DNA of 64,000 nt, taken from contig CAFBRK010000313.1 of NCBI GenBank assembly GCA_903231505.1, positions 1-64,000 on the forward strand, written 5' to 3'. This stretch comes from Olavius algarvensis associated proteobacterium Delta 3 (GTDB taxonomy: Bacteria; Desulfobacterota; Desulfobacteria; Desulfobacterales; CAFBRK01). Position numbers and translations under genes: made by a program. Under the pieces are notes generated by a model, which was not told the DNA's origin, searched no databases, and saw only the letters and a list, made by a program, of their open reading frames with translations. Numbering within the stretch: the stretch's first letter is position 1; each line of letters begins with the position of its first letter. Shown piece by piece: positions 9,438-28,082 of the stretch.

Positions 9438-11234
9438 TTAGAGTAGGTCGTGAAACCGGCGGGATAAACTCTCGACTCTCCCTTGGGCACCGCACTCTTT
9501 GAACACGTCGATGGCTTTGCCGAGATGGTCTTTGGCCACCTGACGGTCTCCTTTCCGGATCTGCAGCTCGGCATACAGCGCATAGTGCTTCCCCAGATGG
9601 AGAGTCAGGCCGTTTTGTCGATCGGTATCGATCGCCTTTTGAATCCAGCCTTCCGCTTCATCCAGATGCTGGTCATCGATGTCCATCAGGATGTCGCCGA
9701 TGTACATCGGCATTAATCCGGCATTGAAGAGGACCTGGTTGTCTTCGTAATATCGATATAGCGATTCCAGGTCCACGGCCCGCTTGTCATCCTCCCGGGT
9801 CAGGGCATGTCGAAACACGTAGGTCGACTGAGGATAGACCCCCCGCTCGATGAGAAGCTCTGAATGTTTAAGCACCCCCAGGGTCGCCTGCAAATCCTCT
9901 TCCGGAAAGCCGGCAACCCGTTCAATCAGACGATGGCTGAACTCTCTTTCAATAATCGACCCGATCTGCAGCAGTTCCTTTGCGGGTTCTTTCAGGGTAT
10001 CGACACGGGCCATGATGACATCGCTGATGGTGGACGGGATGGACAATTCTGCCAGATTTTTGGCCAGCCGATAGGTGTCCTCTGTTTTCGTTATGATGTT
10101 CAGATCCAGAAGGGATGTCACAAACTCCTCGACGAAAAAGGGAACCCCTTCGGTTTTTTCCAGGATCAGGGTTTCCACTTTGCGATCCAACGTTCTCGTG
10201 TTTAACAGGTGGACCACCATGGACAGGCTCTCACGCCTCAGCAAACGATTTAGACTGATCTGGCAATGATAGGATTTGAAACTCCAGGCCGGCACAAACT
10301 GGGGGCGATAGGTAAAGATCAATAATATCCGGGCGCCCGGCACGTAGCTGAGAAGATCATGGAGCAAATCGATGGAGCTGGTATCGGCCCAATGCAGATC
10401 TTCGATCGCAACGATCAAGGGGCGGATCTCCGAACCTTTGATCAATATCTGGAGGACCGCCTCATTAAGGCGTTCTTTCAGTGATTGCAAACTGATCGTG
10501 AACCGGTCCAGCCCGGAGTCTTTTACGGATAGAAGCTCCAGCAGATAGGGCATTATGCCAGACTCTTCGATTTCCAGGAATTCCAGCCCTTCCACGATCC
10601 GCTGCCGAACGGCACTGTCCTCGTCGCCCTCCTGGATCCGAAAGGCGGATTTCAGGATATCGATGACCGGATGATAGGCGACACCCTTGCTGTAGGAAAG
10701 GCACTTTCCTTCCAGAAAAAGCACATCCTCATGGGTCACCGACTTTCTGAACTCGTACAGGAGGCGGGACTTTCCCATTCCCGCCTCGCTGACGATGGAA
10801 ACGGCCTGGCCGTTGCCGGCCTTGGCGCGTTCAAAGCTGTCCGCCAGCAGTTCCAGCTCCCGCTCTCGTCCCACAAGAGGGGTCAGGCCCCGCTCGGCAC
10901 TGACATCGAACCGGGTGCGGCGTCCACTGGGAGCAATCACCCGGAAAACCTTGATGGGTTTTTCCGTTTCGATGAGTATCTCTTCGGCGACAGCCTCAAA
11001 ACGGAAAAACCCCTCGGTGAGCTTGAAAGTCTCTTCGGTAACGTAGGTGGTGCCGGGGGCTGCCAGGGTTTCCATCCTGGAGGCCAGATTGATGGTGTCC
11101 CCCATGGCAGTAAACTTGACACGCAAATCGTTGCCGATGGCGCCCACCACCACCGGTCCCGCATTGATGCCGATGCGAAGCAGAATCGGCGGAAGCTCCA
11201 GCTCCGCTCCAACCTTCTGACTGAGTTTGATCAT
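9438..11234 (-). CDS. Truncated adenylate-cyclase-like/AAA ATPase protein
   Basis: A 598-residue protein of the class III cyclase plus large ATPase type. It starts inside the cyclase domain (RIGINAGPVVVGAIGNDLRV, then FTAMGDTINLASRME), so the first half with the metal-binding Asp motif is absent. Next come an ATPase with Walker A SEAGMGKSR and Walker B LIVAIEDLHWAD, and only a short TPR-like C-terminus; the segment after YVFRHALTRE appears to jump over several repeats. Family members are usually over 1000 residues. Its ATG overlaps the stop of the upstream response regulator by 4 bases. Probably a decayed gene or a signalling ATPase without cyclase activity. Confidence 0.7.
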   Translation of the reverse strand: MIKLSQKVGAELELPPILLRIGINAGPVVVGAIGNDLRVKFTAMGDTINLASRMETLAAPGTTYVTEETFKLTEGFFRFEAVAEEILIETEKPIKVFRVIAPSGRRTRFDVSAERGLTPLVGRERELELLADSFERAKAGNGQAVSIVSEAGMGKSRLLYEFRKSVTHEDVLFLEGKCLSYSKGVAYHPVIDILKSAFRIQEGDEDSAVRQRIVEGLEFLEIEESGIMPYLLELLSVKDSGLDRFTISLQSLKERLNEAVLQILIKGSEIRPLIVAIEDLHWADTSSIDLLHDLLSYVPGARILLIFTYRPQFVPAWSFKSYHCQISLNRLLRRESLSMVVHLLNTRTLDRKVETLILEKTEGVPFFVEEFVTSLLDLNIITKTEDTYRLAKNLAELSIPSTISDVIMARVDTLKEPAKELLQIGSIIEREFSHRLIERVAGFPEEDLQATLGVLKHSELLIERGVYPQSTYVFRHALTREDDKRAVDLESLYRYYEDNQVLFNAGLMPMYIGDILMDIDDQHLDEAEGWIQKAIDTDRQNGLTLHLGKHYALYAELQIRKGDRQVAKDHLGKAIDVFKECGAQGRVESLSRRFHDLL

Positions 11235-25847: not shown

Positions 25848-26410
25848 TAGAACAATGCCGGTATTGCTTTTATCCTCAAAATCCCATGACTTCCGACCCC
25901 GATGTTGATACACACTTTTATTAGGGTTCAAGGTTTACCTGCCTTTGGCAGCGCCGGAGGCGACCAGGGTTTACCCGCCCGCCTGAGGCGGATAAACCTA
26001 TGGCGGCGCCGAAGGCGACCAGGGATTCAAGGGGTCGAGTGAAATACTAATCGTCGGGTCCAAGGGTTCGAGGATCCAAGGGGTCGGGTGAAATGCCTAA
26101 AGACCCCATTAACCTAATCCCTGCAGTTTTCTGGAGCCAAGCGGAAATTCCAGCCAACAGGATAGTACGGACGGGAATGTTTCCCGCCAAACTGCCGGAG
26201 GACATGCCTTCTGTCCAATAAGCGACATCGTCGCATTGTATTAAATCGTTGTACGATTTTATTTAGAAAACAAACCCTTGAACCCTTGAATCCTTGGACC
26301 CTTTTCTGCAACTAAAGTGGAGAAGAACCAAAAAAATTCATACAAAGATTATATATCAAGCACTTGAAATTTTGGCCCCTGTTATACCCACAAGTGAGGT
26401 GAAGCTATCC
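25848..26410. other. Repeat-rich intergenic
   Basis: No gene seen. Bases 25925-26110 contain GGTTTACC/CCTGCCTTTGGC, GCGCCGGAGGCGACCAGGG (twice, imperfect) and CAAGGGTTCGAGGATCCAAG units. At about 26274-26303 the inverted form AACCCTTGAACCCTTGAATCC appears, so the region could fold on itself. This is a typical repeat graveyard. Confidence 0.5.
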
Positions 26411-26833
26411 ATGGAAGGTGAAAAGAACCGCGAAGAGAATGGTGAAAATCCAAAGGATGACGCACATGACAGCGGGGTATCGGAAGACGCTCCGGATGAG
26501 CCGCCGCTGACTGACGAGGACTGGAAACGCCGGGTTCTGTGCAGCGATGAAAGCTGCATTGGCGTCATCGGCCCGGATGGCCGATGCAAAGAGTGTGGCA
26601 CGCCCTACGAGGGAGAATTGCCGGAAGTAGAGGTGCAAACCCCCGAAACCGAAGATGTGTCCCAATCTGAGCCGGAACCAGAAGACGCCTTGGCCGGAGA
26701 TCCCCAAGAATCAGATGATGACGACGACTGGAGCCGGAGGAAGCTATGCAGTGATGGCAATTGCATCGGGGTCATCGGACCCGATGGCACGTGTAAGGAG
26801 TGTGGGAAGCCCTATACGGATGATTCCACTTAG
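26411..26833 (+). CDS. Acidic protein with duplicated CxxC zinc-ribbon-like module
   Basis: A 140-residue, strongly acidic protein holding two copies of one module: RRVLCSDESCIGVIGPDGRC with KECGTPY, and RRKLCSDGNCIGVIGPDGTC with KECGKPY. Each has four Cys spaced as a zinc knuckle or ribbon. The modules are joined by an acidic, low-complexity linker. The start at 26411 has AGGTGA upstream; the longer frame from 26294 lacks support. Function unknown; such repeats usually mediate binding. It faces the peptide array across a shared terminator. Confidence 0.75.
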   Translation: MEGEKNREENGENPKDDAHDSGVSEDAPDEPPLTDEDWKRRVLCSDESCIGVIGPDGRCKECGTPYEGELPEVEVQTPETEDVSQSEPEPEDALAGDPQESDDDDDWSRRKLCSDGNCIGVIGPDGTCKECGKPYTDDST

Positions 26834-26972
26834 CCCATTTATTGCATGAAATCTTTTCAGAAAGTGGGCGATTTGAAAATAGGTAATAGCTTCTATTCAA
26901 ATATCTTGCTGTCTCTACTTAAATTTTCCCCTCAAACTCAATCTCTGGTCGGACAAGAAGGCTCAATCTAAA

Positions 26973-27010
26973 TAAAAAAGGCAATGCCGGAACAGGCATT
27001 GCCTTTTTTA
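26973..27010. terminator. Bidirectional terminator
   Basis: AAAAAAGGCAATGCC and GGCATTGCCTTTTTT form a perfect stem around a 6-base loop, with A-run and T-run on either side. It can terminate the zinc-ribbon gene from the left and the peptide array from the right. Confidence 0.92.
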
Positions 27011-27016
27011 CTAAAT

Positions 27017-27129
27017 GTGAAATCTTTTCAGAGAAACAGGTTCCGTTGGCAATTCCGCATAGAGTCTGTTCGGTAGAGCTATAGTAGCAGGTAGAGGTCG
27101 AAGTTTCAGCTTACTGAAAAGATTTCACG
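27017..27129. repeat. Exact 15-bp inverted repeat beside peptide array
   Basis: GTGAAATCTTTTCAG (27017-27031) and CTGAAAAGATTTCAC (27115-27129) are exact inverted copies flanking 83 bases. Fourteen bases of the same motif occur again at 26849-26862 and the full 15-mer at 1002-1016. It could be the ends of a small non-autonomous element or a structured RNA region downstream of the peptide genes. Confidence 0.65.
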
Positions 27130-27138
27130 ACCTTTAAT

Positions 27139-27276
27139 TTAGCCTTGAACATCGATGCCAAGGTCACAGCCAAGGGCGGGATCTGGAGTTTCACATTCCT
27201 GATTCTTTTCCCGAGTGTCCACATGCCCCTCTTCTCTTTCCTGGTCGGTCTCGACGTAATCTTGATTATTCGCCAT
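27139..27276 (-). CDS. Tandem 45-residue peptide, copy 3
   Basis: A 45-residue peptide, third member of a tandem family. It begins MANNQDYVETDQEREEGHVD and ends PDPALGCDLGIDVQG. It has two Cys (ECETPDPALGC) like its paralogues and is strongly acidic. AGGTGATATC precedes the ATG, the same ribosome-binding region as copy 2. It is the most diverged copy (TREKNQECET in place of TRSRNFECDN). No signal peptide or hydrophobic stretch is present. Function unknown; see findings. Confidence 0.8.
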   Translation of the reverse strand: MANNQDYVETDQEREEGHVDTREKNQECETPDPALGCDLGIDVQG

Positions 27277-27345
27277 GATATCACCTCATAACTGGTTGAT
27301 CGGAATTAAGTAGTCTGCAATTATATTGGAGATCGGACTCCATCA

Positions 27346-27483
27346 TTAACCCTGTACATCAATTCCCATATTGCAACCCAGGGCGGGGTCCGGATTGTCA
27401 CACTCAAAGTTCCGGCTTCGGGTATCTACGTGTCCTTCGTCTCTTTCCTGGTCGGTCTCAAAGTAATCTTGTGTGTTCGCCAT
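27346..27483 (-). CDS. Tandem 45-residue peptide, copy 2
   Basis: A 45-residue peptide beginning MANTQDYFETDQERDEGHVD and ending DPALGCNMGIDVQG. Compared with copy 1 it changes only about nine positions, most of them near the N-terminus. AGGTGATATC precedes the ATG. It is separated from copy 3 by 69 bases and from copy 1 by 49, so all three are probably on one transcript. Two Cys nine residues apart (ECDNPDPALGC) could form a disulfide, a thioether or a metal site. Confidence 0.82.
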   Translation of the reverse strand: MANTQDYFETDQERDEGHVDTRSRNFECDNPDPALGCNMGIDVQG

Positions 27484-27532
27484 GATATCACCTCATATTT
27501 TTTATAAGTGAGTATAGGTCAGCAAATTTTCA

Positions 27533-27670
27533 CTACCCTTGGACGTCGATTCCCATGTTACAACCTAAGGACGGGTCCGCATTGTCACACTCAAAGTTCC
27601 GGCTGCGAGTGTCCACATGTCCTTCTTCTCTTTCAGCGTCGGTTTCAATGTAATTTTGAATTTCAGCCAT
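27533..27670 (-). CDS. Tandem 45-residue peptide, copy 1
   Basis: First and promoter-proximal copy: MAEIQNYIETDAEREEGHVD at the start, RNFECDNADPSLGCNMGIDVQG region at the end. A longer frame extends to 27727, but GGAGGTG lies just before the ATG at 27670 and the other copies begin at the matching position. All three end in GIDVQG. The near-complete conservation over the whole length, with separate ribosome-binding sites, argues for real translated genes rather than chance frames. No modifying enzyme gene is adjacent. Confidence 0.85.
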   Translation of the reverse strand: MAEIQNYIETDAEREEGHVDTRSRNFECDNADPSLGCNMGIDVQG

Positions 27671-28082
27671 GATGCACCTCCAATATGTTTTCAATTTGTT
27701 GTTTTGTTTTTTGTATGGAAATAACATAGGCGCATCGAATTCAATTTCAATACGAGACAGATAACCGTCTAATGATAGCTAAAAACTGTTATTTTTGCCC
27801 GTATGAATTTTCTCCCCGGATTGGGGGAACGGCGCGTTGACGCACCATCTGCCGGCATCATGATAACCGCATCCTGGCGGCCGGGGTCTCACCGGAAGCG
27901 TTGTACCGCCCATATGGTACGGGGTTTGATATTGTTTTTCCGAACATTATCCGATATATGGCGAAGGTCGACATGTGTCGGGGGAAACCGTTTACAAGTG
28001 GATGCGTTTGGACTCAAATACACGTCCATCGATGCGGCACTGAAGTAACTTTACCCGGCACACCAAGTCCGGACATGTCATC
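27671..28082. other. Intergenic upstream of peptide array and alr
   Basis: The AT-rich part 27671-27790 should hold the promoter of the peptide array. The rest (27800-28080) has the look of decayed coding sequence; one plus frame ends YKWMRLDSNTRPSMRH and a stop near 28043, which could be the tail of a lost gene. No supportable gene. Confidence 0.4.

Follow-up and report, generated by a model that had tools for sequence, protein, structure and literature searches.

The locus analyzed here raises the question of what three consecutive genes, each encoding a peptide of exactly 45 residues without a recognized family, do for the bacterium that carries them. They lie in the window, that is, the whole 64,000-nucleotide stretch of DNA analyzed from the Olavius algarvensis associated proteobacterium Delta 3. 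The first-pass annotation had described tandem, nearly identical, acidic peptides with a ribosome-binding site each and two Cys nine residues apart, and had offered them as precursors of ribosomally made modified peptides (RiPPs), metal-binding peptides, or a new small-protein family. The three open reading frames of exactly 45 residues were confirmed and all lie on the minus strand, which had not been given, following one another along transcription as copies C, B, and A (Table 1). The ribosome-binding sites (GAGGTG/GGAGGTG at all three copies), the Cys positions (residues 28 and 37; C-x8-C), and the acidity (predicted pI of 4.05) also agreed with the initial description. The copies are clear paralogues, with 30 of 45 alignment columns invariant, although "nearly identical" was somewhat strong, given identities to copy A of 78% and 69%.

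Table 1. Features of the peptide array and its flanks, in window coordinates.
Feature	Position	Strand	Basis
Inverted repeat TAACAG-N7-CTATCA, putative activator site	27773..27791	minus	motif; model match 27745-27793, E 1.6e-8
Sigma-70-like promoter: -35 TTGAAA (27750-27745), 16-bp spacer, -10 TATGTT (27728-27723)	27723..27750	minus	one loose-consensus match
Ribosome-binding site of copy C, GGAGGTGCATC	27671..27681	minus	
Copy C, first gene, 45 aa, MAEIQNYIETDAEREEGHVDTRSRNFECDNADPSLGCNMGIDVQG	27533..27670	minus	ORF and family match
Ribosome-binding sites of copies B and A, GAGGTGATATC	27494-27484 and 27287-27277	minus	
Copy B, second gene, 45 aa, MANTQDYFETDQERDEGHVDTRSRNFECDNPDPALGCNMGIDVQG	27346..27483	minus	ORF and family match
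Copy A, third gene, 45 aa, MANNQDYVETDQEREEGHVDTREKNQECETPDPALGCDLGIDVQG	27139..27276	minus	ORF and family match
Perfect 16-bp hairpin, T-run on either strand (likely terminator)	26973..27010	.	inverted repeat I2

The three reading frames are not chance frames, since homologues were found in other genomes of the window's order (E down to 2.5e-23), in 71 of the 291 genomes of a class sample (E ≤ 1e-3), and as 101 confirmed stretches across 84,980 species genomes, a scan that demanded LGC[DN][LMP]G[IV]DV and missed divergent members. All 80 listed stretches of these 101 came from records named as Desulfobacterales members or deltaproteobacterial MAGs, and the three matching genomes of a phylum-wide sample of 395 were likewise within the window's order. 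Pfam and NCBIfam returned no family for the peptide even at an E-value of 10, and a PDB profile search gave chance matches only (E > 0.7). A scan of viral contigs yielded no relative, and a phage origin was set aside. The suggestion of a new small-protein family was thus borne out: judged by sequence and by its named matches, this is a previously unnamed, strongly conserved family confined to Desulfobacterales.

Across the final 29 codons, compared in 94 members, the invariant residues were G17, H18, D20, T21, R22, N25, C28, D32, L35, G36, C37, G40, D42, V43, and G45, giving the pattern GH-D-R--N--C----LGC---G-DV-G. Conservation extended unbroken from G17 to G45, and nearly all complete members terminated in GIDVxG or GVDVxG. 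The proposed comparison of synonymous and nonsynonymous changes gave a ratio far from one (median dN/dS of approximately 0.12 in the 1184 pairs that could be used, many of them with dS close to saturation); at the invariant residues the first and second codon positions were fixed while third positions varied freely. As had been claimed for the three copies, these patterns indicate purifying selection on the peptide sequence. Arrays of two or three tandem copies were also present in other genera, and cultured sulfate reducers that carry the family include Desulfospira joergensenii and Desulfosarcina alkanivorans. Separately, apparently decaying family members were observed at five loci (L038, L052, L028, L184, and L053), with the second Cys replaced by Arg (in two copies), the N-terminus lost, or a frameshift.

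Gibbs sampling of the regions upstream of first-in-array genes, run with no prior assumption, returned the inverted repeat TGRTAG-N7-CTAYCA approximately 22 bp upstream of a -35 element containing TTG. In an alignment of 46 sites, this TTG was conserved and its spacing to the inverted repeat did not change, which backs the sigma-70-like promoter match in the window. The weight matrix, itself built from 46 of the sites, scored 20 bits or more upstream of 66 of the 86 first genes and reached this score for none of the 13 downstream tandem copies and none of the 99 shuffled upstream regions; about a quarter of the first-in-array genes (e.g., that of Desulfoluna) had no site. The site of copy C was the only one in the 64 kb, copies B and A having none. 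Because the site stands at first genes and was absent from the 13 tandem followers and the 99 shuffles, copies C, B, and A are taken to form a single operon with one promoter, probably ending at the downstream hairpin, which is likely the terminator of both the array and the facing gene.

The region 26960-27140, which includes this hairpin, had a folding z of -5.4. The 15-bp sequence GTGAAATCTTTTCAG occurs at 26847-26861, 27017-27031, and 27114-27128. Two of the copies, 82 nt apart, form a perfect inverted repeat, and there is a further direct copy; the stretch, with the adjoining hairpin included, folds strongly and may constitute a small mobile or structured element. A nearby ORF (26294-26833, plus strand) encodes an internally duplicated Cys motif, CSDxxCIGVIGPDGxCKECGxPY, and had no meaningful Pfam match.

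The remaining genes under the same site were mapped by model search only, with a sequence-only site model (R1) run on whole genomes. At E ≤ 0.02, the number of sites greatly exceeded the chance expectation in 25 of 30 genomes, and the gene families downstream of non-peptide sites recurred across different genera. Those identified with Pfam included an MFS_2 transporter, CMAS with DUF1365 (UfaM/UfaO-like), a UfaD-like amine oxidase, DUF2177, Chalcone_3 (chalcone-isomerase-like), an M50 protease with CBS domains, OEP (outer-membrane efflux protein), an ABC ATPase, fasciclin, FtsH, DUF2237, a ThiS/Ub-Mut7C-like protein, and DUF2062. Also found were methyltransferases of one family that is extended at the N-terminus, and several small proteins that could be assigned to no family. 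In the window's own genome, a cluster of furan fatty-acid type (G000:C216) carried two sites, and a further site was located at G000:C106:94032.

Four kinds of small protein were noted beside the site. A 64-residue family (MxCSLS...FSCH...) followed the site directly in three genomes (L194, L218:1203-1394, and L224), and a single-helix protein of approximately 50 residues (CxVWVQE..SDWxCVDRL) followed it at two loci of one genome (L193 and L196). A 111-residue protein (GSRHYxEV...VRIDGRTFVNYAE) adjoined the site in several genomes (L227, L234, L186, L192, and L181), its own-genome copy being situated in the furan fatty-acid cluster; neither it nor the 64-residue family had a Pfam match. In that same cluster (L181, near 10870-11060, G000:C216), an acidic, Cys-containing protein of 59 residues without a family was encoded after a weaker copy of the site.

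An earlier clustering of peptide neighbours, with stricter limits and fewer loci, had revealed nothing conserved, whereas the larger set of 96 loci did show conserved genes. Its largest cluster (12 loci, median distance 102 nt) apparently consisted of antisense frames overlapping the peptide genes and was excluded as a gene. The recurrent coding genes were the site-bearing set together with photolyase, RudS (DUF523-DUF1722), UfaD-like, SDR, and PNPOx-like genes, of which photolyase, RudS, and SDR adjoined the peptide in several genera; the fatty-acid and protease genes bear the site themselves, and photolyase was counted as a neighbour. MFS_2, fasciclin, and photolyase are members of the RpoE-ChrR regulon of Rhodobacter sphaeroides. 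In that organism, furan fatty acids are made by UfaM, UfaD, and UfaO, which belong with RSP1087-1091 to the singlet-oxygen-induced RpoE regulon (PMC7380195, PMC3818230). RudS genes, for their part, are often located in light-responsive operons that also contain photolyase and LitR (PMC11417400). The furan fatty-acid genes, MFS_2, DUF2177, DUF2237, fasciclin, FtsH, and M50, along with the clustering of the peptide with photolyase and RudS, strongly indicate by analogy a regulon that responds to light/singlet oxygen or oxidative damage. All three components looked for in a photo-oxidative regulon were found (photolyase, furan/cyclopropane fatty-acid genes, and repair proteases), and the gene content resembles that of the photo-oxidative regulons of Rhodobacter and Pseudomonas. 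Some site-bearing genes had no obvious link to light, including the outer-membrane efflux protein, the ABC transporter, and an amidohydrolase.

The likeness to the R. sphaeroides regulon lies in the UfaD-like amine oxidase, the UfaO (DUF1365), and the UfaM-like CMAS common to both. The two differ in control, since a palindromic site, placed ahead of a sigma-70-like promoter, and a PAS-LuxR candidate take the place of an ECF sigma promoter, and in the presence here of new small peptides and of anaerobic sulfate reducers as hosts. Judged against the ECF11 consensus, the ECF sigma-type promoter element (RpoE-ChrR) was absent from these promoters, which had the palindrome and the TTG -35 instead. 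The light-inducible LitR/CarH operons of Pseudomonas share with this system the RudS and photolyase genes, and a CarH-type protein is encoded in the own genome; however, the operator there differs in sequence and position and is bound by a repressor, whereas an activator is proposed here. Literature searches on the light response of sulfate reducers and on small proteins of Desulfobacterales returned nothing relevant.

For the peptides themselves, the most likely biochemical role is that of a Cys/His redox-active or metal-binding stress peptide. This assignment is tentative for each copy, and it fits the invariant His18, Cys28, Cys37, and Asp residues, the cytosolic character, the acidity, and the tandem amplification. 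An AlphaFold model (mean pLDDT 67, pTM 0.22) supported no fold. About as possible is that the peptides buffer Zn, Fe, or Mn in a general metal or oxidative response that is not specific to light. The invariant His18, Cys28, and Cys37 (with Asp20 and Asp42), the many Asp/Glu residues, and the low pI would suit metal binding. Such binding would also be compatible with a light regulon, since the Zn(Cys)2(His)2 site of ChrR reacts rapidly with singlet oxygen (PMC6432622). Against a general metal response, no metal transporter or metal regulator recurred among the neighbours or the site-bearing genes, and two Cys in 45 residues is far below metallothionein content. Metallothioneins and zinc-binding micro-proteins are similarly small, soluble, and Cys/His/Asp-bearing, but the Cys-rich CxC/CxxC clusters of metallothioneins are replaced here by a single C-x8-C pair, and the peptide matched no Pfam, NCBIfam, or PDB family.

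The proposal that these are RiPP precursors, with enzymes acting in trans and the conserved C-terminal LGC[DN]xGIDVxG as core, fared worse, and we consider it improbable. The peptides do share with such precursors a short length, multiple copies, and a conserved Cys-containing C-terminus, and the own genome encodes a radical-SAM protein next to regulon genes, a similar gene being present in D. widdelii. Yet examination of the neighbours of homologues, as the first-pass annotation had advised, showed no recurrent modification or export gene among approximately 100 members (clustering over 96 loci), extending to the family what had been noticed beside the array; light/oxidative-stress genes and a PAS-LuxR regulator recurred instead. 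The GHVDTR block precedes the Cys and is conserved as strictly as the C-terminus, so that no division into a leader and a separate core region could be drawn.

Several observations point strongly to a PAS-LuxR protein (with a GerE HTH) as the candidate activator of the site. Besides ABC transporters, it was the commonest large, clearly coding neighbour of the peptide (10 loci), and in 11 genomes its gene ended 3-98 bp before a site. Regulator and peptide occurred together in 47 genomes vs. approximately 16 expected (p = 8e-22, a genome-level value that ignores shared ancestry) and in 27 shared genera (p = 9e-10, with ancestry handled to genus level only). Of the 25 genomes with a site, 24 had PAS-LuxR, as did one of the five site-free genomes (p = 9e-4, from a table counted by hand), the site-bearing exception being G001, where none was detected; 24 of the 71 peptide genomes had no PAS-LuxR match at E ≤ 1e-60. 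The regulator thus both co-occurs with and adjoins the site, and the own genome encodes one with PAS and GerE domains (G000:C106:101741-102607).

Control of the regulon by a B12-dependent CarH/LitR photoreceptor is an improbable alternative. The own genome does encode a protein with MerR and B12-binding domains (L212), the peptide is carried by 12 of 14 CarH-bearing genomes (p = 1.2e-6), and in genome G003 a CarH homologue is flanked by two promoters that bear the site and adjoins lon-ftsH. However, CarH was missing from 59 of the 71 peptide genomes, by which it was rejected as universal regulator, and the known LitR operators (TGTACA-N12-TGTACA) overlap the promoter and are repressive (PMC9758184), whereas the present site is upstream; CarH/LitR may act in parallel. 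Least probable is that the site is an operator of the LysR-type regulator OxyR and the peptides members of a peroxide regulon. The site does fit ATAGnTnnnAnCTAT, the OxyR half-site consensus ATAG-N7-CTAT (PMC5720770, PMC5002191), at about -67. In the own genome, which is 94% complete, however, no LysR_substrate domain was found at E ≤ 1e-10, and the only LysR-type HTH above threshold is in a frame of 167 residues and not in a full-length regulator, even though the site of the array ranks among the best.

Taken with PAS-LuxR as candidate activator, the array is probably an operon of a small cytosolic Desulfobacterales protein family, under an activator-dependent promoter of a photo-oxidative (light plus O2) stress regulon. 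What the sequence itself shows is the family, its purifying selection, the operator and promoter site, how the operon is laid out, and which other genes bear the site. In the mechanism that we propose, the PAS-LuxR protein would bind at the inverted repeat and activate a single promoter from which the three genes are transcribed, in response to light/singlet oxygen or oxidative damage. Tandem copies would allow the peptide to be made in quantity, and during stress it could quench, buffer metal, or protect a partner protein. A bolder version, which we regard as rather doubtful, is that the tandem Cys/His peptides are the most dedicated output of a PAS-LuxR-driven light/oxygen-damage regulon, as effectors that are consumed by or sense singlet oxygen (e.g., through a zinc-thiolate site), with further unnamed micro-proteins expressed from the same promoter type.

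Sulfate reducers have been studied as dark, anoxic organisms, and the present findings point to a dedicated photo-oxidative stress regulon that extends over many genera of the group and has an operator of its own, a candidate sensor-regulator, and several micro-proteins without a name. A family absent from annotation libraries thereby gains a testable function, and a single operator motif would allow the whole regulon to be mapped. By analogy with the regulons compared above, this suggests that the peptides may help anaerobic sulfate reducers to survive damage by light and oxygen.
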